DNA of 64,000 nucleotides from Spirochaetia bacterium (GCA_021413825.1 JAIOPQ010000088.1:1-64000), one strand, 5' to 3'; shown: positions 45,834 through 58,238, counted from the first letter of the stretch. Translations and numbers: made by a program. Notes: a model not told the origin generated them from the sequence alone.

Positions 45834-45917
45834 GCCGAAGTGGTGGAATTGGTAGACACAGTGGACTCAAAATCCACCGGGAGCAATCCCTTGTCGGTTC
45901 AAGTCCGACCTTCGGTA
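45834..45917 (+). tRNA. tRNA-Leu (CAA)
   Basis: The acceptor arms GCCGAAG (45834-45840) and CTTCGGT (45910-45916) pair. The anticodon arm is GTGGA-CTCAAAA-TCCAC with anticodon CAA, which reads UUG. A long variable arm (GGGAGCAATCCC) marks a class II tRNA. The T-arm GTCGGTTCAAGTCCGAC is intact. The discriminator is A and CCA is not encoded. The 3' end abuts the stop of the small convergent gene. Confidence 0.93.
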
Positions 45918-46091
45918 TCACATTAATTTCTTAATACAACGCCCATTGGGGCACTTGCTGTGATCAATTACGCAATCGCGGTACTGAATTCCGGTAATCG
46001 GATCTTCCGCCCTGTATTCAACCAGACAATCGAGCCCTTCTAGCTCAAACTGCCGCTCCATGTCTCGTTCGAGTTCAATCAGTTTTGGCAT
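45918..46091 (-). CDS. Small conserved-looking protein with cysteine cluster
   Basis: About 57 residues from ATG 46091, preceded by a very good GGAGGG site. The N-terminal half is a charged helix (MPKLIELERDMERQFELEG). Three cysteines are in LDCLVEY, YRDCVIDHSKCPNG and GRCIKK (four in all), suggesting a small metal site or disulfides. Unrecognised. It ends on the tRNA-Leu boundary. Confidence 0.6.
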   Translation of the reverse strand: MPKLIELERDMERQFELEGLDCLVEYRAEDPITGIQYRDCVIDHSKCPNGRCIKKLM

Positions 46092-46178
46092 GACATCCCT
46101 CCGTGGATGACTGCTCATTCGTGCTTGGACGGTACGACCGCCATTTTCGGCGGTTCTTTCTATACTAGGATTATCGGT

Positions 46179-47243
46179 TTATCCCATGTCGGGACTGTAA
46201 CTGCGAACTTGATTTCTGCCGCCATGTTTACAGGCGTACAGAGCCTTGTCCGAACGTTCGATCATGGTTTTGTTGCTTCTGGCGTCAAGTTCCGGGTCAA
46301 AAATGGAGATTCCAATGGACATGGTAACCTTCATTTCCTTGCCTTCGTGGTTTACTACCATTGACTCAACCGTAGTGCGAATGTGCTCAGCAAGATCCCG
46401 CGCGGTTTTCTCGTCAGCGCCTGGCATTACCACGCAGAATTCTTCTCCGCCGTAACGTGCAGCAAAGTCAGTGCGACGCGCAGAATCGATTAGAACGCGC
46501 GCAACATGTTTGAGCACTTCATCACCGGCCTGATGTCCATGGGTATCGTTGAAATTCTTGAATTTATCTACGTCAGTTAAGAGCAAAGCCAATGGCAATT
46601 TGCGTTTAAGCGCCTTATCGCGTTCTTCACGGAAACGACTCTGGAAGTATGCGTGATTCTTCAGGCTCGTCATCATATCAACGGTGGCCCGCTCATACAA
46701 TCTTGCGTTCTCTACTGCAATTCCACCAAGCGAGGCGAGATCAAAAAGAAATCCTTTCTCACTATCCGGATAGTCTCCGCCTACTGCCTTTTCCCCGAGT
46801 AGAATTAATCCTATTACCTTGCCCTTGGCTTTAAGTGGAACCATGAGTTCCACTCCCAGCTCCCGCAAAGCCTGCATTGGTTTTTGTGAAGCGACTGGCT
46901 CTTCAAGATCTACAAGTTTAATGGTTTTGTTTGTAGTCTCCAGAAGTTGAACCAGCGGCGATTGAACTGGAATGCGATATTCTTCCTCTGGTCTTAAGAA
47001 TGCAAAGCCACGGAAACTATCCACAGGCCCAATGAAGTCTGAATCCATTTCCGGAGTCAGAAAAAGTGCAGCCTGCATGGTCTGCACTTGCGCCAGGCAA
47101 ATATCAAGTATGGCCTGGATCAGATAATTGTAATCAAGCGTTGAGTTTAGCGCTCGCGAGATCTCGATGAGCTGACGCTGGTCGTAGATCTTCTTCTCGT
47201 AGTGTTGAATTTCCTCTGGAAAGCTGAATGACATGGCGGACAT
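46179..47243 (-). CDS. GAF-GGDEF diguanylate cyclase
   Basis: This protein has 354 residues. A coiled start leads to a GAF domain (about 25-185) and a GGDEF domain (about 195-354). The active-site loop is RYGGEEFCVVMPG and an intact RxxD inhibition site (RRTD) lies five residues before it. It should make c-di-GMP from GTP under control of the GAF ligand. It has no membrane segment, so it is cytoplasmic. Confidence 0.93.
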   Translation of the reverse strand: MSAMSFSFPEEIQHYEKKIYDQRQLIEISRALNSTLDYNYLIQAILDICLAQVQTMQAALFLTPEMDSDFIGPVDSFRGFAFLRPEEEYRIPVQSPLVQLLETTNKTIKLVDLEEPVASQKPMQALRELGVELMVPLKAKGKVIGLILLGEKAVGGDYPDSEKGFLFDLASLGGIAVENARLYERATVDMMTSLKNHAYFQSRFREERDKALKRKLPLALLLTDVDKFKNFNDTHGHQAGDEVLKHVARVLIDSARRTDFAARYGGEEFCVVMPGADEKTARDLAEHIRTTVESMVVNHEGKEMKVTMSIGISIFDPELDARSNKTMIERSDKALYACKHGGRNQVRSYSPDMG

Positions 47244-47324
47244 GACATTGTTGATACCTGTAACCTGGTCAACACCTAAAAAGGGTGGACGTTTAGCCCC
47301 CTTTTGGAAAACCTAGTCTTACAC

Positions 47325-47397
<73 letters not shown>

Positions 47398-47400
47398 ATG

Positions 47401-47424
47401 AAAAGGCCCGCGAGGGCCTTTTTT
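47401..47424 (+). terminator. Rho-independent terminator between two CAT tRNAs
   Basis: AAAAGGCCC-GCGA-GGGCCTTTTTT forms a short GC stem followed by six T. It ends the initiator tRNA transcript, so the next tRNA must have its own promoter or rely on read-through. Confidence 0.85.
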
Positions 47425-47426
47425 GT

Positions 47427-47500
<74 letters not shown>

Positions 47501-47505
47501 ATTTC

Positions 47506-48269: not shown

Positions 48270-49202
48270 ATGCTCCTGTGGCTTCTGGGCTCGCTGCTTT
48301 TCATTCAAGTCCTGCTACTGGTTGTGCTTAAACCCATTCTAAATCGAATCGCACCTGAATTATTCACGATTCATTTCACAGGGCCTGGATGGATCTTCCC
48401 GCTATTCTTCTTTCGCGCAAAGAAACTCTCACTCATGATTCGCGGAGGTCCGGATCGGGATCGAGTCTATCTGCATGCAGATTCAGTTTCATTCTGGGTT
48501 TCGCCACTTGATCTGTTAAAAGGTAGAATTGTCCTTGTACACATGCGCCTGATTCATCCATTTCTCGAATACTTCAATCGTCAAGATTCGCATGAAAAGA
48601 ATCGTCTGCTTCCGGCCCCGGGCCGATTCCTGATTCGAGGCGGACGAATCCTGAATGGGCGAATCAAAGTCACCGATGAAACTCGGACCCCGCGCTATGA
48701 ACTCGAACTGAGCAAAATTCACGTGCGAAATGGAAGCGTCGATGTCGGAGTACCAGCGCAATTGTTCTTCACCCTTGGCCAGGGAACAGCACACCTGGGT
48801 GATGGAAATCTCGAGGTGCGAAGCGGGGAGCGCAGCGGCTGGCTGGTCTTAAGCGGAACGTTAGGTGATATTACTAGCATGCGCGGAATGCCGTTTTTCG
48901 GAAGTCGCTTCCTGCTTGAAATGGCTCACAAGTGGGAGGCAGAAACAGGACGCAGTGTGGTTGCAGGTCAAATCTCCGGATCGGAACAGGACAGAAACCC
49001 TGTGCCTTTTGAATTTGAAGTGAACTGGTCGGATTACCGCCTCACGCTGGACCTGGGCTTACAGCGATTGATTGAGCAGGTAATCAATAGCACGCGCCCG
49101 CGCGGGATCAGCATCAAAAGCGGTGTTCTGATGGGCAGCAGACAGTTCTTCGAATTGATCAAGAAAGACTACGGCGACGGTCCACTAAAGGAAATCGTTT
49201 AA
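48270..49202 (+). CDS. Hypothetical membrane-anchored protein, AsmA-like
   Basis: The 310-residue protein has an N-terminal helix (LLWLLGSLLFIQVLLLVVLKPIL). The beta-rich body (AKKLSLMIRGG..., GRFLIRGGRILNGRIKVTD, HVRNGSVDVGVPAQ) resembles AsmA/TamB-type lipid-transport bridge proteins, by general pattern only. It is divergent from the PlsC-like gene, and its stop overlaps the stop of the convergent lipoprotein gene. Confidence 0.5.
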   Translation: MLLWLLGSLLFIQVLLLVVLKPILNRIAPELFTIHFTGPGWIFPLFFFRAKKLSLMIRGGPDRDRVYLHADSVSFWVSPLDLLKGRIVLVHMRLIHPFLEYFNRQDSHEKNRLLPAPGRFLIRGGRILNGRIKVTDETRTPRYELELSKIHVRNGSVDVGVPAQLFFTLGQGTAHLGDGNLEVRSGERSGWLVLSGTLGDITSMRGMPFFGSRFLLEMAHKWEAETGRSVVAGQISGSEQDRNPVPFEFEVNWSDYRLTLDLGLQRLIEQVINSTRPRGISIKSGVLMGSRQFFELIKKDYGDGPLKEIV

Positions 49203-50290
49203 AGATCTGCGAATTTCTTCTCTACAATATACACAAGAAATGCCTGCATCCTTGGCCTGTAGATTGGAAATCTGAAGTAATGGTCGTTTCTCCAGGATAC
49301 GTAGGTGACACCTTCTGCAATTGCACTATCTGCAAGCAAAGTCATACCGTCGTTTGGTCCGTAGCGGATCAGATACTCATAGAAGGGTCTGGCTCTATCC
49401 GTTACAAAACGAAACAGCGGAACTGCTACAACATTGACGACCAGCATCTGCTGTGGGATCTTAAGTTCCGATTCCAGGGGAGCGCCTGCTCCGGCGCGCA
49501 TAGACATAAATCCGTCCCAGTTATAACCGTTCCAACAGAAGTATGCGCGCGCCTCCATCTTGTATTGCCAGGTTTGATCAATGTCCGTGATTAGATGGCT
49601 GCCTTTATTAATACCAACAATGTTGTACCATGCGCGCACCTTCTTAAAGTATGGTTCATCGCCGCATTTTTGAATGGCCCGTTTAAAATCTCCGCTCCCT
49701 TTACTGAGCGATGCAATGATGATTCCCTGAACATCGTCGCGAGATTTTACAAAGTTACAGATGATTGTAGCATTGGTTTCAATAGTTCCGGTTTGCTCTA
49801 CTGGAATGACGGCCTCCGCCAGGCCCAATTCCTTTGCCATGGTCCGCAATTCCTGGCCGTCTGCACCAGTCTGCGGATTGTCAGCATAGAACATTCCCGG
49901 GGCTAAGGCAAGTAACAGCTTCTTGCTCGAAAAATCGGGTTTCTTTGTGGCGATTACCGTTTGCTTGCGATCAAGGAATTCCACGAGCTCACGATTTCTG
50001 GATTCAGAAATCACGCGATGGTAGTACACGGCTGCGGCGCGATCTACATCCTTAGTATCCTGAACGATTTTGTGCAGACCTTCTTGATTTACGTCAGCGA
50101 GCTTTGGCATGCCTGGATATTTAGCGGCCCAGTTCAGGTACTCGACTTCATCGTCGCAAAGTCCCTTAAGCATGTATGCATTGGTTTCACATTTCACAAC
50201 ACGGGTTTGCTCAGGTACCTCAAGCTTGCGATCCACATGACAGGCAAGACTACCGAGCAGAAGCAGGACAGCGATACGAGCCAGGCGCAT
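49199..50290 (-). CDS. Lipoprotein with alpha/beta-hydrolase-like motifs (paralogue 2)
   Basis: The 363-residue protein has a lipoprotein signal (LLLLGSLACHVD, Cys about residue 17). The body holds IIIASLSKGSGDFKRAIQ, which looks like a serine nucleophile elbow, and possible acid and His in PNDGMTLLADS and SWRNDHYFR. Family unknown. It is a tandem duplicate of the gene upstream, sharing long stretches such as WYN(I/V)VGINKGSHLITDID and GYNWDGFMSMRAGAGAPLE. One base separates the two genes. Confidence 0.75.
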   Translation of the reverse strand: MRLARIAVLLLLGSLACHVDRKLEVPEQTRVVKCETNAYMLKGLCDDEVEYLNWAAKYPGMPKLADVNQEGLHKIVQDTKDVDRAAAVYYHRVISESRNRELVEFLDRKQTVIATKKPDFSSKKLLLALAPGMFYADNPQTGADGQELRTMAKELGLAEAVIPVEQTGTIETNATIICNFVKSRDDVQGIIIASLSKGSGDFKRAIQKCGDEPYFKKVRAWYNIVGINKGSHLITDIDQTWQYKMEARAYFCWNGYNWDGFMSMRAGAGAPLESELKIPQQMLVVNVVAVPLFRFVTDRARPFYEYLIRYGPNDGMTLLADSAIAEGVTYVSWRNDHYFRFPIYRPRMQAFLVYIVEKKFADL

Positions 50291-50291
50291 A

Positions 50292-51368
50292 TTAGCGCAT
50301 CCCCACTTCTACGGCGTACGCAATCATCGCATAGAGCCTGGCTTCGGGGATTTCGTAGCGGAAGTAATGATCGTTTCGCCACGATGCATACGTCACGCCT
50401 TCTGGAATATGGCTATCTGCAAGCAGTGTCAGACCATCGTTTGGACCATAGCGTGTTAGATAATCATAGAACGGTTTAGCGCGTTCTGAAACATACTTGC
50501 TTCCCGGAATTGCAACAACGCTGATGATTTTCATATGAGCAGGAACTACGAGTGGAGTTTCCAGTGGAGCGCCAGCACCGGCGCGCATGGACATGAACCC
50601 ATCCCAGTTGTAACCCTTAAAACAGAAATATGACCTGGCTTCCATTTTGTACTGCCAGGTGTTGTCAATGTCGGTGATCAAGTGGCTTCCCTTGTTAATG
50701 CCAACAACGTTATACCAGACCTTAACCTTTTTAAAGTATGGTTCATTGCCACAAATCTGTATGGCGCGTTTAACATCGCCGCTGCCCTTACTTAAAGACG
50801 CAAGAATGATCGATCCAAAAAAATCTTCCTTCTCTACGTATTCACAGATTGTATGCGCATTTTCTTCGATGGTTCCAGTTTGTTCGACTGGAATAATCCC
50901 ATCAGAAATTCCAAGCTTCCGAGCCATCATGCGGAACTGTTTTCCATCTGCCCCTACTTGCGGATTATCCCTGTAGAACATCCCGGGGGCAAACAGAAGT
51001 AGAACCTTCTTATCCACAAAGTTGGGCAGCTTTTTCTCAATTTCCTTTTCTCGCCGCAGCAGGTAGGCCATGAACTCCACGTTCTTTGGATCTGTAACCA
51101 TACGATGATAGTATAACGCGGCGGCACGGTCGACGCTCTTCTCTGTCTGAGAAACCTGGCTGAGTCTCTCGCGAGTCAAGTCTTCAATTCGTGGATACTG
51201 TTTGTAATCCTGGGCCCATTTCAGATTTGCAACTTCGTCCGCACAGAGCCCATCAAGGTAGAGCATGGAACCCTTGCAGGCAGAAAGATCCACGTCTGCT
51301 GTCTTAAGCTCTTTGTCCACATGACAGGCGGTCGCAGACAGCAGTAAGAATAACGCGACGCGTTTCAT
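50292..51368 (-). CDS. Lipoprotein with alpha/beta-hydrolase-like motifs (paralogue 1)
   Basis: About 358 residues from ATG 51368 (MKRVALFLLLSATACHVD), which gives a clean lipobox; 12 more codons upstream are possible. The elbow IILASLSKGSGDVKRAIQ and the closing SWRNDHYFR match its neighbour. It begins in a four-base overlap with the DUF4105 gene, so the three form one operon: DUF4105 protein, paralogue 1, paralogue 2. Confidence 0.75.
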   Translation of the reverse strand: MKRVALFLLLSATACHVDKELKTADVDLSACKGSMLYLDGLCADEVANLKWAQDYKQYPRIEDLTRERLSQVSQTEKSVDRAAALYYHRMVTDPKNVEFMAYLLRREKEIEKKLPNFVDKKVLLLFAPGMFYRDNPQVGADGKQFRMMARKLGISDGIIPVEQTGTIEENAHTICEYVEKEDFFGSIILASLSKGSGDVKRAIQICGNEPYFKKVKVWYNVVGINKGSHLITDIDNTWQYKMEARSYFCFKGYNWDGFMSMRAGAGAPLETPLVVPAHMKIISVVAIPGSKYVSERAKPFYDYLTRYGPNDGLTLLADSHIPEGVTYASWRNDHYFRYEIPEARLYAMIAYAVEVGMR

Positions 51369-52579
51369 GAATTTGATACGAGTGCTTGTTTCTGCTTCCA
51401 ACATTCAAGTGTAAACAGAACAAAGAAGGAAATTGAAAAAGCAAGGATTACTGTCAGAGTTTGAGGAACCACAGTGAGAGTCAGCAAGAGCGCAAGGATA
51501 GCCATGCTCAATCTTGTGACCGCAAAGTAAAACCAGCGCGCAGACGGCTTATAAGTCCAGAGGGCGAAATCGACGGGACACAGCGCCAACCAGGTTACGT
51601 TGTGCGACATGAAATCAAACGATGTAACTGCAAACACCAGGAAAGCCAACAAACCACCGAGTCCGGAAAAAACCGCAAACGCACGAATCCCTTTGCTTTG
51701 AAACCTCTTCAGGGCCGGAACGGGAAGCATTGCAATTAATACAAGGAACATGAACAGGATGCCCACTGTTCCAAAGATATCGCGATTTTTAGGTGGGTGG
51801 AAGGTTCTATCTCGAATGACTTCAACTGGCTTGCCCACCCAGCCCGCTGTTTCCAGCGCAAGTTTAAGATCGTCTGGTAGATAGATCAGGGTATGCCCGT
51901 CTCGAACCTGGTCTGTGGTGTAATCAAAGAGGAGTTTCTCGTGAATTCGTAGCCAAACGTTTTCATTTGAATAGTCCAGCACACGCGTGCGCCAGGTGTT
52001 CTTCTTCTCAATTGCAGAGTCTGGCAGGGATACTTTTTTCCCTTTTGCATTGCTAATCATGTCCCGCATGAATGTGACACAATTGTTTTTGAAGTTATGG
52101 TATTCGTAGCCTTCTGCGTTCTTACCAACATTCTCTACAATATGAGCCAGCAGTTGGGCCTTTTCATTTTCTGTGAGTATCAAATCTGACACAAACATTC
52201 CTCGCCCACTTGCATCCCAGGCTTCATAAGCCGAGCGCATGGGCAGAATGTTGACCGTGAATCGAGCATGGCCGCGCAGAAAGCGCCAGAGAAAAGACAT
52301 CGAAGGATCGTATTCACCGAAATCCACATAGAAGTCTTCAGCCGCAAGATCAGCACCGCGCGTGACGCGCAGGGCTGAGTGGCCAAAGGCCGTGGTGACT
52401 GTTAGTCCCGGGGTAACTGTCACCAGTTGAACCCTTAAATTTCCGAACGGAGGCCTGGCTGCAATTGCAAGGAAGCTATTTTTAGATTCATCGCGCCAGG
52501 TTTGTGCCTGGATTGCAAAGGGACTCAAGAGTATAACGGCCAGTAAGGTGGTCTGAAGTTTGTGACGTAAGATAATCAT
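51365..52579 (-). CDS. DUF4105 / Lnb-type periplasmic cysteine-fold protein with membrane domain
   Basis: About 404 residues. After a signal peptide comes a DUF4105 (Lnb N-terminal periplasmic) domain: VTTAFGHSALRV (His), YVDFGEYDPSMSFLWRFLRG, and YEYHNFKNNCVTFMRDM (Cys). This is a papain-like NlpC/P60-related fold. Four helices follow at the C terminus. Lnb proteins of this family are described as lipoprotein N-acyltransferases in some bacteria that lack Lnt. Here it heads an operon with two lipoproteins and sits beside a lipoprotein-rich region. Confidence 0.75.
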   Translation of the reverse strand: MIILRHKLQTTLLAVILLSPFAIQAQTWRDESKNSFLAIAARPPFGNLRVQLVTVTPGLTVTTAFGHSALRVTRGADLAAEDFYVDFGEYDPSMSFLWRFLRGHARFTVNILPMRSAYEAWDASGRGMFVSDLILTENEKAQLLAHIVENVGKNAEGYEYHNFKNNCVTFMRDMISNAKGKKVSLPDSAIEKKNTWRTRVLDYSNENVWLRIHEKLLFDYTTDQVRDGHTLIYLPDDLKLALETAGWVGKPVEVIRDRTFHPPKNRDIFGTVGILFMFLVLIAMLPVPALKRFQSKGIRAFAVFSGLGGLLAFLVFAVTSFDFMSHNVTWLALCPVDFALWTYKPSARWFYFAVTRLSMAILALLLTLTVVPQTLTVILAFSISFFVLFTLECWKQKQALVSNS

Positions 52580-52730
52580 GGTGGATTTTTTCCGAGTCAA
52601 TTCGGCGCCAGCGGGCAAATACGCATATCAAAAAGCGGAGTTTAGAGCCGATGCGGCTAAGCGAATGCGAGCAGTGGTCTTGTTTGGTAGTGAAAATGTG
52701 CGAGGGGAATTAAGTTAGCAGAGAAAATAA

Positions 52731-52752
52731 TGCCCCGGCGTAAACCGGGGCA
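52731..52752 (-). terminator. Terminator-like hairpin after TRL-like gene
   Basis: TGCCCCGG-CGTAAA-CCGGGGCA makes an eight-pair GC stem ten bases past the minus-strand stop. On the minus strand it is followed by TTATTTTC, a modest T-run. Confidence 0.7.
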
Positions 52753-52761
52753 TTGCATTGA

Positions 52762-53097
52762 TTAGTCGCCGTTTACGACTGTGCAAGTTTTGGAAAGAAC
52801 TGAACCCAACAGATTGTCATTTTTGTAGTCAATTGTTTGGATTTTTGTGATTCCACCTGCAGCTGCTGCAGCTTTAGTTCCAGCATCACCTGAAGAAATG
52901 AGCCCCAGGATACCAGATACGCAAGCTTCGCCAGTTTTGGAGCCAGCGCCAGTAGGACCATTGTTCAGACCATCATCACCGAGACGGAGAGTGGTGTTTT
53001 GCATAATGGATCCAGACGGAGCTGAGTAGCCGCCACCGGAACATGCAACAGAAGCTGCAACGATGAGGGCTGCCCCTAGCAGAAGAAGTTGTTTCAT
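52762..53097 (-). CDS. TRL-like family lipoprotein (A)
   Basis: This 111-residue protein has a lipoprotein signal (LIVAASVACSGGG). The mature part follows the TRL pattern: KTGEAC, ILGLISSGD, KAAAAAGGITKIQTIDY, and CTVVNGD at the end. The two cysteines (mid-protein and C-terminal) are candidates for a disulfide. GGAG sits 12 bases upstream of the ATG. The function of TRL proteins is unknown; related proteins are named for a tRNA-associated locus. Confidence 0.8.
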   Translation of the reverse strand: MKQLLLLGAALIVAASVACSGGGYSAPSGSIMQNTTLRLGDDGLNNGPTGAGSKTGEACVSGILGLISSGDAGTKAAAAAGGITKIQTIDYKNDNLLGSVLSKTCTVVNGD

Positions 53098-53212
53098 TTT
53101 TTGTTCTCCATGAACATTATTTTGATGCCAGTGAACACTGCCCTAAGAATCGATCAACAAAAAATTAACTGATATCGGGTAATCTGGCTTCGCGCGATGA
53201 TTTTGCGATTCA

Positions 53213-53683
53213 TTAACCGTCTTTCGCGCGCTTCAATACATCTTCCGATGTTTTCAAAGTCTTTTGAATGGCTTTAGTGACATCTGTCAGCTTTTGTTCG
53301 GGGGTGTACGGTTCCTGCCCGCGAGGAGCCTTCCTGCTTGCACTGCGCATACATGCCTTGTCGAGAATGACAAGGTCATCGTGAACTTCTTTAATGAGGG
53401 AATTATAGGTTTCGCGTGTAATCTCTTCCGTAACCCTCAAATCGAGCAACTTCCATGAGTTTGCTTCAATCTGACGGATCATTGCCTTATCGTCCCCTTT
53501 GATTTCGCAAAGGTTAAATGCTACACTTACACCATACCATTTCTTGCTGGCAGTTTGCTCTGTTATGTAGCGCCCATCAATTTGTGGTGCAGTGCGCACA
53601 TCCTGCGCCCTGCAGGTCAGGACTAAAGACGCAAAGGACAAAGCGGCTGCAAGGAGAGTAGACGAACGGTTACGCAAAATCAT
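53213..53683 (-). CDS. Hypothetical secreted protein
   Basis: The 156-residue protein has an N-terminal signal (LLAAALSFASLVLTCRAQ) that could be a lipobox or a cleaved signal. The mature part is helical and charged, with two cysteines (FNLCEIKGDD and DKACMRSAS). Not TRL-like. It lies between two TRL-like genes on the same strand. Confidence 0.65.
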   Translation of the reverse strand: MILRNRSSTLLAAALSFASLVLTCRAQDVRTAPQIDGRYITEQTASKKWYGVSVAFNLCEIKGDDKAMIRQIEANSWKLLDLRVTEEITRETYNSLIKEVHDDLVILDKACMRSASRKAPRGQEPYTPEQKLTDVTKAIQKTLKTSEDVLKRAKDG

Positions 53684-53754
53684 TACGACAAAGTGCGTCA
53701 GGAACCCGCCAGGTCAAATCATTTGAAGACGTAAGCGATGCAGCCTTCCAATCA

Positions 53755-54069
53755 TCAATCCCCGCGCGCGATTGTGCACGTTTCAGAAATCAATGTACCT
53801 AGAGTTTGCGACACCCGGTAGTCCACAGCTTTGACTTCTGTGATACCGCCCACGGCAGCCGCAGATTTGATGCTGGCATCGCCCTTTGAGATGAGGCCCA
53901 AGTAACCGGTGGCACAAACCATACCTTCGCGTGAACCAAGGCGAGTCGGTGTTGTTACATCTTTATTAAGCGTGACGTCCATATACAATGAACCGTACGG
54001 GGCGGTGTACCCGGTCATGCAGGATGTGAGTAGCACGGAAAATGAAAGTCCAATTAAACGAATGCGCAT
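53755..54069 (-). CDS. TRL-like family lipoprotein (B)
   Basis: The 104-residue protein has a lipobox (VLLTSC) and the TRL pattern: REGMVC, LGLISKGDASIKSAAAVGGI, AVDY and CTIARGD. It has both conserved cysteines. It is closest in layout to protein A, though A starts with a longer Gly-rich stretch. It is divergent from the plus-strand TRL group. Confidence 0.8.
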   Translation of the reverse strand: MRIRLIGLSFSVLLTSCMTGYTAPYGSLYMDVTLNKDVTTPTRLGSREGMVCATGYLGLISKGDASIKSAAAVGGITEVKAVDYRVSQTLGTLISETCTIARGD

Positions 54070-54348
54070 ACGGAGACTGACGATCCCCGGGAAAGATCGT
54101 CAAGCGGAATTATTGGAATCGTTGAAGCCCTCGGGACTTAAACCGGATGGGGCCACCCGTGAAAAGGAAAGAAGAATAACCCGCCCTGAACATTTGAAAT
54201 CTCAAACCGAGCGACTTCCTGCAGTGTTTTCATATTGAACCTTTTCCCTTGAAGAGTCCCAATTGCAGGCGGGGCGAGTTTCAAAACTTTCCGCAATACA
54301 CAACGTTATGCGACATTACTCCAGTTATTTCTCTGACGGTTTTCACAT

Positions 54349-54376
54349 TTGACTTCTGCTCAACGCGGTTTAATCT
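54349..54376 (+). promoter_or_regulatory. Candidate sigma-70 promoter for the plus-strand lipoprotein run
   Basis: TTGACT (54349-54354) and TAATCT (54371-54376) are separated by 16 bases, about 100 bases before the first gene. It lies in the 405-base gap between the divergent TRL genes (54070-54474). No gene was recognised there. Confidence 0.4.
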
Positions 54377-54474
54377 AACCTGTTCCAGCGATAAAAAAAA
54401 ACAAGATACGTTCGCGCGTAACTATTGACAACTGATGCGGCTTAACGTCCCTCATGGCAGAGGTATTCGATCCA

Positions 54475-54783
54475 ATGTATAAACGTCTCGTGTTCACCCT
54501 ATTGATTTCACTTGGGATTTCCTGTGTTGCCCCGGGCGGCGGCGGTGCCGTTATATTTAATTCATTCAGCGGACCGTTCCAGGCCACATCCAATGCTGGA
54601 CGCGGGAAGACCGGTGAAGCATCCGCATATTGCATGCTCGGCCTTGTCTGTTTTGGTGATTGCAGCATTAACAAAGCTTCTCAAGAAGGAAATTTAACCA
54701 AGGTTGCAGCTGTAGACTATCACTACACGAGCATATTGGGTTTTGTGTTTAACAAAACAACTATCATCGTAACAGGAGAATGA
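54475..54783 (+). CDS. TRL-like family lipoprotein (C), cysteine pair lost
   Basis: The 102-residue protein has a lipobox (LISLGISC) and TRL body (GKTGEASAYCMLGLVCFGDCSINKA, KVAAVDYHY, TTIIVTGE). The conserved mid cysteine is Ser (KTGEAS) and the C-terminal one is Thr (KTTIIVTGE), so both partners are lost together. Three other cysteines appear nearby. Start ATG 54475 follows an AGAGG site. Confidence 0.75.
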   Translation: MYKRLVFTLLISLGISCVAPGGGGAVIFNSFSGPFQATSNAGRGKTGEASAYCMLGLVCFGDCSINKASQEGNLTKVAAVDYHYTSILGFVFNKTTIIVTGE

Positions 54784-55340
54784 TCGTGCGTTCGATCGTC
54801 TTAGTATTCGCGTTGATAGCTGCGGGGGCTGGTTGCGTTGCACCGAGCGAAATGATTGCTTTCGGCCCAACAAATGGGCTGCACCGAGCCCCAAAGGCTC
54901 AGCCCACTGGCGGATTATTTACAGTAATCACTCAACCCGGTTACGTAACTGAAATTCCACGCGGCCCCTCTACGGTGCGGTACGGCTATCGCTGTTATGG
55001 AAATTATTTCTGCATTGGCGAGAAGGATATCGGAAGCGTAAGTTTAAGCTCTCCCGTGGTGGCCGTCTTCTCTGTGGATCTAAAATCCATGAACTATCAG
55101 GTTTATTCCATCTACGAGGTGGTTGTGAATGGTTGGAGTCGTGACGCCTGGCAGCAAAAGTACGGCAGCCTGGATTCGATTCCTGCTTCAGCACGCGCCT
55201 TCCATCAGAACGTTGAACTCAACGATGGCAAGATTTACGCAAACGTGATTACTCAGAAGACAGAGCATCATGTGTTCATATGCGATGCTTCAGGGAAAAC
55301 GAGCATTGAAGACAATGCACGAGTCTTCAGGATTTATTGA
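54780..55340 (+). CDS. Hypothetical lipoprotein in TRL run
   Basis: The 186-residue protein overlaps gene C by four bases and has a lipobox (LIAAGAGCVAP). The mature part is Tyr/Gly-rich at first (PSTVRYGYRCYGNYFC), then mixed. It lacks the TRL pattern. Unrecognised. Confidence 0.65.
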   Translation: MIVRSIVLVFALIAAGAGCVAPSEMIAFGPTNGLHRAPKAQPTGGLFTVITQPGYVTEIPRGPSTVRYGYRCYGNYFCIGEKDIGSVSLSSPVVAVFSVDLKSMNYQVYSIYEVVVNGWSRDAWQQKYGSLDSIPASARAFHQNVELNDGKIYANVITQKTEHHVFICDASGKTSIEDNARVFRIY

Positions 55341-55348
55341 GTAGGTAA

Positions 55349-55651
55349 ATGATGAAGTTGAAACATTCCCTTATATTCCTGTTTCTGTTCTGCGGTTGCT
55401 ATACTTCCAGTATGGGAACTCTTCCCCTTGTTCAAATCAAAGGGGAAATGGTTCCGCTGCGCGAGGATACGGAAGGAACTATCATGGTGCGAACGTGCGA
55501 TCCAATCAATCTCACTGACGCGATGATAGGAATAAAGTCCCAGAAGGATGATCTCCTGGGTCTCAAAGATTTTGAGATGTATACCACTGCTTCAGGTGTG
55601 CGGAATTGCTGGAAAATCCGTGGAATCCCAGTGACCAGAGGTGCCAAATGA
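55349..55651 (+). CDS. Small lipoprotein, distant TRL-like ending (G)
   Basis: The 100-residue protein has the signal LIFLFLFCGC. Mature part: MVRTCDPINLTDAMIGIKSQ and VRNCWKIRGIPV. The two-cysteine spacing and CxKxxGIPV ending resemble protein J. I count it as a divergent member of the group by this ending only. Confidence 0.6.
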   Translation: MMKLKHSLIFLFLFCGCYTSSMGTLPLVQIKGEMVPLREDTEGTIMVRTCDPINLTDAMIGIKSQKDDLLGLKDFEMYTTASGVRNCWKIRGIPVTRGAK

Positions 55652-56025
55652 CTTCCAGCAAAACTCTAATGGCGTTCACCCTGATGGTCATTCTCATGGC
55701 CGCCGATTGTAGAATTGGAACGGGCACGTTTGTCGCCACATCCAACTTCAAGGATTTCAAAGAGCTTTCAACAACGAAGGTAAAGGGAAAGTCCTGCCGC
55801 GTGTGGTTGCTACATGTTGCCCCGGTGGGGGGCTTCAATCTGAACGACGCGTATGCTTCCGCTATGGAAGGCGCCGGATCAGAGGCGAATGCTATGGCCA
55901 ATATGAGTGTAAGCATCGAAAGACCCATTCCAATTTTCGGTTGGCTGATGCTCATCCCGATTGTTGCACCATGGGAGTGCTATGTAGTAGAAGGATACCC
56001 TGCCAGAATGGGCAACGTACCCTGA
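55648..56025 (+). CDS. Small lipoprotein, divergent TRL-like (H)
   Basis: The 125-residue protein starts in an ATGA overlap with G. It has a lipobox (ILMAADC), then KVKGKSCRVW and FNLNDAYASAMEGAGSEANAM, and ends WECYVVEG. Both conserved cysteines and the A-rich helix are present. A hydrophobic segment (PIFGWLMLIPIVAPW) precedes the last cysteine. Confidence 0.6.
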   Translation: MTSSKTLMAFTLMVILMAADCRIGTGTFVATSNFKDFKELSTTKVKGKSCRVWLLHVAPVGGFNLNDAYASAMEGAGSEANAMANMSVSIERPIPIFGWLMLIPIVAPWECYVVEGYPARMGNVP

Positions 56026-56035
56026 TCTTGAAAGG

Positions 56036-56076
56036 GCAAGGATCGCTTCAGAAACTTTGATCTGGCGATCCTTTGC
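56036..56076. repeat. Inverted repeat, possible terminator
   Basis: GCAAGGATCGC pairs with GCGATCCTTTGC across an 18-base loop, just past gene H. No T-run follows. It begins a 258-base gap (56026-56283) in which I recognise nothing else. Confidence 0.5.
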
Positions 56077-56283
56077 GCCGAGCCATGGCAAAAAACTCGG
56101 CTCTCGAATTTGTGCTCTTAGATTATCTGTTGAACGATTTGTTTTGCGATAGTAGTGAATTCGCAAACAACAGTCTGCAATACTCTAAACCGGGTATGAA
56201 ATACTTTCCACATCTTCGCGCAAATAGGATTACATTTTCAAATATTGCATTGACATCTGTCCGATCGAGAACATCTCTCGGCG

Positions 56284-56586
56284 ATGCGTTTTCTATCGAT
56301 GTGTTTGATCTTTTGCACTTTGCTGTTAGGTGGTGCCTGTATCACGCTGCCGCAGGGTCAAATTGGCTATCTAGTTCCCGGCGGAGAACAGACCGGCAAC
56401 ATGACTCCGTATAAAAAATGCGGAGCTCCTGGAGTCTGGACATATCTGCTGGATAACCGAATGGTCGAATCTACCGTTTTGCTAGCAGACCGGACCAAGA
56501 AGCCTTATAATGCGCGCGTGCTTGTCGTAGACCTTGGTCTGATGGACTCTTGCAATACCCTTCGTGTTTATGAGGAATCCAAATGA
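56284..56586 (+). CDS. Small lipoprotein (I)
   Basis: The 100-residue protein has a lipobox (LLLGGACITL). The mature part is PQGQIGYLVPGGEQTGNM and two cysteines (YKKCGAPG and MDSCNTLRVYEE). The TRL core is not clear, but the cysteine spacing fits. It overlaps J by four bases. Confidence 0.6.
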   Translation: MRFLSMCLIFCTLLLGGACITLPQGQIGYLVPGGEQTGNMTPYKKCGAPGVWTYLLDNRMVESTVLLADRTKKPYNARVLVVDLGLMDSCNTLRVYEESK

Positions 56587-56903
56587 AAATGAAATTCGCT
56601 CTAATTCTTTTTTTGACAATCATCATGGCAGGTTGCCAGTTCAAAGTTGGCAGTTTTAAGCGAATGGACAAGGAGGCACCTCCTGGTCTAACCGAGCTGG
56701 GCGGTACCGTTTTTGGTGAAAACTGTGTCTATGGTTTTCCCCTGACGGGAGACCCCAATCTTCAAGCAGCAACAAATGAAGCAATTCTTCGCGGCCCTGA
56801 GGGAACCACGGGGTTGAAAGATGCCGTCGTAGAAACCCGTTACATCCTGTTCATTAACGGTCTTTGCTATAAGGTCACTGGTATTCCCGTTAAAGAGAAA
56901 TAA
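56583..56903 (+). CDS. Small lipoprotein, TRL-like (J)
   Basis: The 106-residue protein has a lipobox (TIIMAGC). The body runs GENCVYGFPLTGDPNLQAATNEAI, LKDAVVETRY, LCYKVTGIPV. It carries both cysteines and the Ala-rich helix. The C-terminal motif matches protein G. Confidence 0.65.
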   Translation: MKMKFALILFLTIIMAGCQFKVGSFKRMDKEAPPGLTELGGTVFGENCVYGFPLTGDPNLQAATNEAILRGPEGTTGLKDAVVETRYILFINGLCYKVTGIPVKEK

Positions 56904-57112
56904 CAACATCACGATATCCGCAGCCAGGGCATCGATTGGGCCCTGCCTCGTATCGCAATGCCGCCTAACGTGTTCTAGGGGCCTCCCTGGAAAAGATCGT
57001 CGCACGTTCATCTACCCGATGTCGGTGATGGGAAAAAACTCCGTTGTGTTGAAAAATGGTTTTACACTTTTCGATACGTCCAGCGCATCAAACACGTACA
57101 GGAGGTGTGCAA

Positions 57113-57514
57113 ATGAAACTAGAACGACTTTCTGGAATATTTGGAATAAGTCTGATCGTACTCGCGGGCCTTTCAGTGGCCTGCACCAGCGGCTCAAATA
57201 TCGGAGCATTCGTCGGGGTAGTCGGGAATACTAATCCAATTCCAGCTTATACGAACATTCAACATCCAAGGGGTGGGGGTTTGTTTTATGTTAGTGACGG
57301 CGAAGCTACGCAGCTTGGATCAGCAGCCATCACAGCTGAGGGCACTGCATGCTCGCACGCAGTATTGAGTCTGGTTGCCTTTGGGGATTCAAGCATCTAC
57401 ACTGCAATGCAAAACGGAAATATCAAGAAAGTTGGATCCGTTGAGCAAGATCATAGTATGATCATTTCGGGAATTTACAATAGACGCTGCACAATCGTGC
57501 GCGGGGAGAAATGA
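57113..57514 (+). CDS. TRL-like family lipoprotein (D)
   Basis: The 133-residue protein has a strong AGGAGGTG site and lipobox (VLAGLSVAC). TRL core: AEGTACSHAVLSLVAFGDSSIYTA, NGNIKKVGSVEQD, CTIVRGE. An extra ~40 residue Gly-rich spacer separates the lipobox from the core. It heads a three-gene TRL run. Confidence 0.8.
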   Translation: MKLERLSGIFGISLIVLAGLSVACTSGSNIGAFVGVVGNTNPIPAYTNIQHPRGGGLFYVSDGEATQLGSAAITAEGTACSHAVLSLVAFGDSSIYTAMQNGNIKKVGSVEQDHSMIISGIYNRRCTIVRGEK

Positions 57515-57843
57515 GAATGAACACAACGCGTAAACTATCATTTCTCTTTGCAGGAATCTGCCTGCTATTCGGAGCGAATTGTGCCGTGGGCCCAACAAGC
57601 GGTTTGCTCTTTACATCAAACAGTTTTGCAGGTGTGATCAATCCAGCAAATGATGTTCCTATTGTGAAAACCGGTGAATCCTGCCAGCATCAAATCCTCG
57701 GGTTGATTGCTTTTGGGAGTTCCGGAGCAGGAGACGCGGCCCAAGAAGGCGGTGTCGAAAAAATCGCAACAATAGACCATTCCACGGTTAACGTTTTGAG
57801 CGTGCTCTATGCTCAATATTGCACGATTGTTCGCGGTAAATAA
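57511..57843 (+). CDS. TRL-like family lipoprotein (E)
   Basis: The 110-residue protein overlaps D by four bases. Lipobox LLFGANC; core KTGESCQHQILGLIAFGSS, QEGGVEKIATIDHS, CTIVRGK. Both cysteines conserved. Confidence 0.8.
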   Translation: MRMNTTRKLSFLFAGICLLFGANCAVGPTSGLLFTSNSFAGVINPANDVPIVKTGESCQHQILGLIAFGSSGAGDAAQEGGVEKIATIDHSTVNVLSVLYAQYCTIVRGK

Positions 57844-57854
57844 GGAGGATGGAC

Positions 57855-58193
57855 ATGTTGCATAGAATTCTAGGATTAGGTTTAATGGCATCCTTACTGA
57901 TCGGCGGTGGGTGCCTGTCAGCACCGCTTCAAGGCATTGCCTTTACGTACTCAACTTCAAACGTGCATGATCGCGGCGGATCTATTCCGACGTCTGCAAG
58001 CGTGAAGAAGAGTGGGAAAGACTGCCTCTATGGCATACCTATTGTTGGTTGGTTCTGGAACGGACCGTCACAGAGCATTCAGAAGGCTGCGGCTGAGGCC
58101 GGCATCTCCAAGATTGCTGTAGTTGATCACAATTCGCTCAACGTTTTTGGACGCTTCTTCTACCGAGAATGCGTCGTAGTCTGGGGCGAATAG
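57855..58193 (+). CDS. TRL-like family lipoprotein (F)
   Basis: About 112 residues from ATG 57855, six bases after an AAGGAGG site (an ATG at 57849 abuts that site). Lipobox LLIGGGC; core KSGKDCLYGIPIVGWFWNG, AEAGISKIAVVDHN, ECVVVWGE. Last of the run. Confidence 0.8.
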   Translation: MLHRILGLGLMASLLIGGGCLSAPLQGIAFTYSTSNVHDRGGSIPTSASVKKSGKDCLYGIPIVGWFWNGPSQSIQKAAAEAGISKIAVVDHNSLNVFGRFFYRECVVVWGE

Positions 58194-58203
58194 TCTGATT
58201 ATG

Positions 58204-58238
58204 AGAGTCGAAGGCATGCCTTCGACTCTTCTTTCTTA
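58204..58238. terminator. Perfect palindrome terminator between convergent genes
   Basis: GAGTCGAAGGCATGCCTTCGACTC (58205-58228) is split here as GAGTCGAAGGCA and TGCCTTCGACTC, a 24-base perfect palindrome followed by TTCTTTCTT. It separates the TRL run from fliH and could terminate in both directions. Confidence 0.75.

Follow-up and report, generated by a model that had tools for sequence, protein, structure and literature searches.

We analysed a 64,000-nucleotide stretch (the window) from a Spirochaetia bacterium (GCA_021413825.1, JAIOPQ010000088.1:1-64000) and describe here a lipoprotein locus at positions 52762-58193, in which an earlier reading made from the DNA alone (the sequence-only reading) had seen six TRL-like lipoproteins, A to F, and at least three divergent relatives sharing a cysteine pair. 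The locus encodes 11 members of what is best read as the TRL superfamily, all small and lipoprotein-like (A-F, I, p100a, p125, p100b and p106). They are arranged as two single genes (A and B), a CX5C pair (C-I), two p100-p106 pairs and a triplet (D-E-F) of the kind called type I below (Table 1), an anatomy in which we have high confidence. The reading frames of D/E, C/I, p100a/p125 and p100b/p106 overlap. An N-terminal hydrophobic stretch and a cysteine were found by eye in 11/11 members, with an atypical Asp at lipobox position -1 in p125. Position 54475 is a likelier start for C than 54454, and the start of D was placed after AGGAGGTG. The whole genome holds 8 TRL genes, six of them at this locus and the other two on contigs C46 and C97.

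Membership of the TRL superfamily

We searched the locus proteins with the Pfam TRL profile (PF13146) at its cut-off of 25 bits. All of A-F passed (6/6, 43.7-82.3 bits), including D, E and F, for which a missing match would have counted against the sequence-only reading, so its six TRL proteins are real. Neither I nor p100a, p125, p100b or p106 gave a match.

Protein I, which had been described as having cysteines and no clear core, matched by phmmer the genes located directly after C-type TRL genes in L081, L056, L089, L088 and L076. It joined TRL only through an iterated profile (E-value 1.8e-4) and through its own orthologs, and fell within a C/I sub-family group with a support of 99 in the tree; judged by its sequence, it belongs with C's sub-family as a divergent TRL.

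The p106 and p125 proteins have homologs in other genomes that are common to both, and together make up a family in which two cysteines are invariant. With signal peptides removed, hhalign aligned this family with the TRL profile at 96.15% (E-value 2.8e-9), cysteine on cysteine, while 100 column shuffles reached at most 3.4% and the reversed profile 1.5%. The two p100 proteins, of which p100a is also one seed of the p100 profile used to detect p100 genes, aligned with the p106/p125 family at 88% (null maximum 0.8%) and with TRL directly at a weak 3%; because this direct alignment is unconvincing, they are linked to TRL through p106. Profile-profile homology alone thus places p100a, p125, p100b and p106 in the TRL superfamily, outside TRL proper, and the divergent relatives of the sequence-only reading become four proteins of 100-125 amino acids (starting at 55349, 55648, 56284 and 56583) instead of three. 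Since the divergent proteins join by profile (p106/p125, p100) or by phmmer and tree (I), all eleven are best read as one superfamily.

Table 1. Genes and other features of the locus, in window coordinates (aa, amino acids; G001, congener).
Feature	Position	Strand	Description
A	52762..53097	-	Single TRL lipoprotein, 111 aa, Cys59/Cys105; Pfam TRL 68.7 bits; G001 ortholog 96% identical
x156	53213..53683	-	Exported, 156 aa, between A and B; non-TRL
B	53755..54069	-	Single TRL lipoprotein, 104 aa, Cys52/Cys98; Pfam TRL 62.7 bits; G001 ortholog 84%
C	54454..54783	+	TRL lipoprotein, CX5C pair Cys60/Cys66; Pfam TRL 82.3 bits
I	54780..55340	+	Divergent TRL with the CX5C pair Cys72/Cys78; partner gene of C, the two overlapping at ATGA
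p100a	55349..55651	+	Gene 1 of first p100-p106 type pair; Cys50/Cys87; basis: p100 profile, hhalign of p100 vs p106 family
p125	55648..56025	+	p106 family, gene 2 of first pair; Cys50/Cys111; homologs common with p106
p100b	56284..56586	+	Gene 1 of second p100-p106 pair; Cys46/Cys90; 45% ortholog at equivalent place in G001
p106	56583..56903	+	Gene 2 of second pair; Cys48/Cys95; 54-60% ortholog at equivalent place in G001
D	57113..57514	+	Type I triplet position 1 (Lsa14-like); Cys80/Cys126; Pfam TRL 71.1 bits; position clade
E	57511..57843	+	Type I triplet position 2; Cys58/Cys104; ATGA overlap with D; Pfam TRL 75.5 bits
F	57849..58193	+	Type I triplet position 3; Cys59/Cys108; Pfam TRL 43.7 bits; position clade
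Terminator-like hairpin 3' of F	58203..58230	+	Stem of 12 pairs, T-rich tail
Terminator-like hairpin 3' of A	52729..52754	-	Stem of 11 pairs
Variable segment	54048..58253	.	Replaced by 2.26 kb in congener G001; blastn/tblastn, window vs L078

Fixed modules and their replacement in a congener

TRL genes were present in 27 of the 61 genomes sampled, and 26 of these 27 belong to the window's own order. Tandem TRL runs comprised 26 triplets and 14 pairs, and none had four or more genes. Two types of triplet could be distinguished: type I (n=18 in 14 genomes from two families, D-E-F included) and type II (n=8 in 8 genomes). In a tree with many weak forks, each triplet position clusters with its own kind (support 97 for the position clade of E), and profiles built with the tested genome left out returned the correct type and position for 77/78 triplet genes. 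The pairs are ordered as well, with I-type genes immediately following C-type genes (counting a weak candidate in L071) and p100 immediately preceding a p106-type gene at 10/13 sites, three of the p100 matches being weak (E-values of 4e-4 to 6e-3). Fixed-order pairs and triplets thus recur across the bacterial order. Beyond close relatives, no neighbour is conserved across triplets at large, bar a FecR-like gene near six of them.

Two further arrangements were recorded. In G029 a single TRL gene (L138:2732-3220) is a natural chimera that skips position 2, its first half scoring as position 1 (51.5 vs 25.0 bits) and its second half as position 3 (67.3 vs 27.6 bits). A near-identical type I triplet with a shortened reading frame in its third gene lies on a short contig labelled Woesearchaeota archaeon KatS3mg002 (L099:3281-4306), which is probably mis-binned.

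In the congener G001 the locus has syntenic flanks with 77-80% nucleotide identity, one reaching from 46288 through B and the other running on from FliH, whose protein is identical. Between these flanks, 2.26 kb with p100b-p106 and a type II triplet stands in for the 4.2 kb of the window, the triplet taking the place of type I D-E-F; by blastn and tblastn, C-I, p100a-p125 and D-E-F have no counterpart at the syntenic G001 site. With conserved flanks and a replaced interior, the modules are the fast-changing part of the site. The sequence-only reading had seen here a local expansion under diversification: whole-module replacement at a syntenic site bears out the diversification, but the D-E-F triplet is an old cassette of fixed order, present in 14 genomes from two families, and no recent local expansion. 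Recent tandem duplication as the origin of D-E-F was likewise rejected, since the position orthologs span two families.

Among the neighbouring genes, x156 belongs to the A/B block in this genus, with an 80% ortholog at the equivalent place in G001 and a weaker one in L064, and matches no Pfam family above cut-off. Further out, positions 49199-50290 and 50292-51404 encode adjacent paralogs, each sharing about 58-60% identity with the G001 ortholog of the other, and again no Pfam family was found above cut-off for either. The protein encoded at 51365-52618, which adjoins the lipoprotein locus, carries an Lnb N-terminal periplasmic domain (PF13387, 48 bits). In other bacteria, proteins of the Lnb type act on lipoproteins, and a link between this one and the locus is conceivable.

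Two locations for a cysteine pair

From the joint absence of the two usual cysteines in C, the sequence-only reading had argued for a disulfide. The usual pair is indeed absent from C, which has instead Cys60 and Cys66 (KTGEASAYCMLGLVCFGDC), a CX5C common to all C orthologs. We scored both pairs in 134 TRL domains. At positions 56 and 102, both cysteines were present in 123 domains, neither in 10, the first only in 1 and the second only in 0, the single half-pair being a copy with an in-frame TGA (G028:C237:8277-8513, L074), in which the second cysteine alone is gone and which has probably decayed. At the CX5C positions 59 and 65, both cysteines were present in 9 domains and a single one in none. 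The two pairs are mutually exclusive, no TRL protein carrying both. CX5C is found in C and its orthologs and in I and its aligned orthologs, and CX4C in two I-type proteins that are more distant. In an extended set of 158 domains, 125 had the usual pair, 11 had CX5C, 21 had neither (all from outside the order) and 1 was the fragment with the only half-pair.

Loss of the disulfide in C was thus set aside in favour of its relocation to CX5C. Because TRLs outside the order have neither pair, "lost" is one of two directions for C: it may have another disulfide or may never have had the usual one, in a tree too poorly resolved to give the direction. The argument for a disulfide as such is strengthened by the coupled presence and absence of the cysteines across the 158 domains, by the second, exclusive pair and by the oxidative folding machinery of the genome, which encodes separate DsbA-family genes and a VKOR-DsbA fusion (L148/L151, G000:C1:26778-27911; a single 426-amino acid frame with both domains) and in which DsbB is absent.

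An AlphaFold2 model of E (mean predicted local distance difference test score, pLDDT, of 78, with core blocks at 83-94) places Cys58 in a strand at 53-62 and Cys104 in a strand at 100-109. Mapped onto E, the CX5C positions are residues 61 and 67, which flank the 63-65 turn between strands 53-62 and 66-69 of the model, and a hairpin disulfide would fit there.

A possible envelope assembly and its known relatives

The locus is a variable site for modules of TRL-superfamily lipoproteins, and we consider the chances even that the members of a module are subunits of one assembly. Each exported protein would carry a single small beta-beta-alpha-beta-beta domain held by one disulfide staple, which would link the first core strand to the last in most members and close the first hairpin in C and I. 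The members of a module, co-made from overlapping genes, would each supply a different subunit to one lipoprotein assembly in the outer membrane, and gain, loss or exchange of a whole module would alter the display or binding properties of the envelope. Fixed order, position-specific sequence, overlapping frames and the limit of two or three genes are as expected of subunits of one assembly.

Several points weigh against such an assembly. The assembly step itself is inferred, the lipoboxes of several members are atypical, and the AlphaFold2 model of p106 is unusable (pLDDT 40). The cysteine pairing was read from strand positions in the E model rather than from coordinates; furthermore, cysteine states group by clade and leave one independent contrast on supported branches, so that the counts and their Fisher values overstate independence. 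The fixed order may merely reflect descent as a block without physical contact, and the existence of singles such as A and B indicates that some TRLs can do without a partner.

The last two points also suit the alternative in which the proteins act singly as surface adhesins or antigens, their order being kept by inheritance and movement as a block with no hetero-oligomer. The L138 chimera of positions 1 and 3, which persists in G029, fits it too, as does Lsa14 (LIC12287), a Leptospira lipoprotein related to D that is reported to bind laminin and plasminogen and did so as a single recombinant protein (PMC7662565). We nevertheless find this alternative rather unlikely, as strict runs of two or three genes with position-specific sequence in two families suggest non-redundant parts, and as the genomes appear to be mostly of environmental type with no evident mammalian host, which would make host-matrix binding an improbable ancestral role.

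That the paired cysteines serve metal binding or redox chemistry instead of stapling the structure is improbable. Their strict coupling and the extra Cys70 of C would agree with such a site, but neither a CXXC nor a His-rich motif is present, TRLs without cysteines remain in the sequence family, and two alternative positions are more readily reconciled with a staple than with a site. A fold search of the Protein Data Bank and of viral models gave no match below an E-value of 0.001 and hence no similar solved structure that would point to a site; FKBP-like matches were dismissed (E-value of 0.07 or worse, template modelling score below 0.33). That the modules block or mask phage receptors in the manner of superinfection exclusion, which would explain their swapping at one site and would suit a TRL gene near a Gam-like gene in a Helicobacter enhydrae prophage (BK070145.1; L102:2872-3192), is just as hard to sustain, since no relatives were found in plasmids or viral contigs and no conserved neighbour points to defence (no PADLOC search was made).

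A wider form of the assembly reading, in which TRL proteins in general are subunits of widespread small hetero-oligomeric envelope assemblies encoded by interchangeable cassettes of two or three genes and Lsa14 is a triplet subunit and not a stand-alone adhesin, is more tentative. The statement of the sequence-only reading that TRL proteins have no known function was too strong, as the NCBIfam model for adhesin Lsa14 (NF047877) lies within the family and singles out the D position. D scored 88.6 bits, below the 120-bit equivalog cut-off, which four D orthologs in a sister family passed. The top 19 matches in the order are type I position 1 (one of them, at a contig edge, was not assigned to a position), after which scores drop from 88.6 to 72.8 bits. 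LIC12287 is reported absent from saprophytic Leptospira (PMC11263434), yet a Leptospiraceae metagenome bin is among the sources in which we found position-1 orthologs. Binding to mammalian matrix is therefore unlikely as the original role of these proteins, and laminin and plasminogen binding by Lsa14 would probably be a borrowed use. Lsa14 was studied alone, and the portions of the Lsa14 literature available to us mention no triplet. The prediction is that Lsa14, a leptospirosis vaccine candidate, may have partner subunits. With fixed cassettes, defined positions, two cysteine homes and an exchange site, a family with almost no biology becomes testable.

The closest known thing to these modules is the TRL family itself, whose small lipoproteins A-F resemble above its cut-off. 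PF13146 takes its name from trl of Helicobacter pylori, a tRNA-associated locus. The source of the name lies between tRNA genes (PMC3120642), whereas at the present locus no tRNA lies within 5 kb of A. A tRNA association was rejected as a general TRL trait, as only some single-TRL loci are near tRNAs: a tRNA-Met pair lies a few kb from single TRL genes in four genomes (window 45834-47501, L080, L062 and L078), joined by a tRNA-Leu in 3/4 of these loci. Outside the order, TRLs occur as 1 or 2 genes per genome in a 393-genome sample of the phylum, with no cysteine pair in those sampled; within it, a genome holds up to 11 such genes, with ordered triplets and coupled cysteines.
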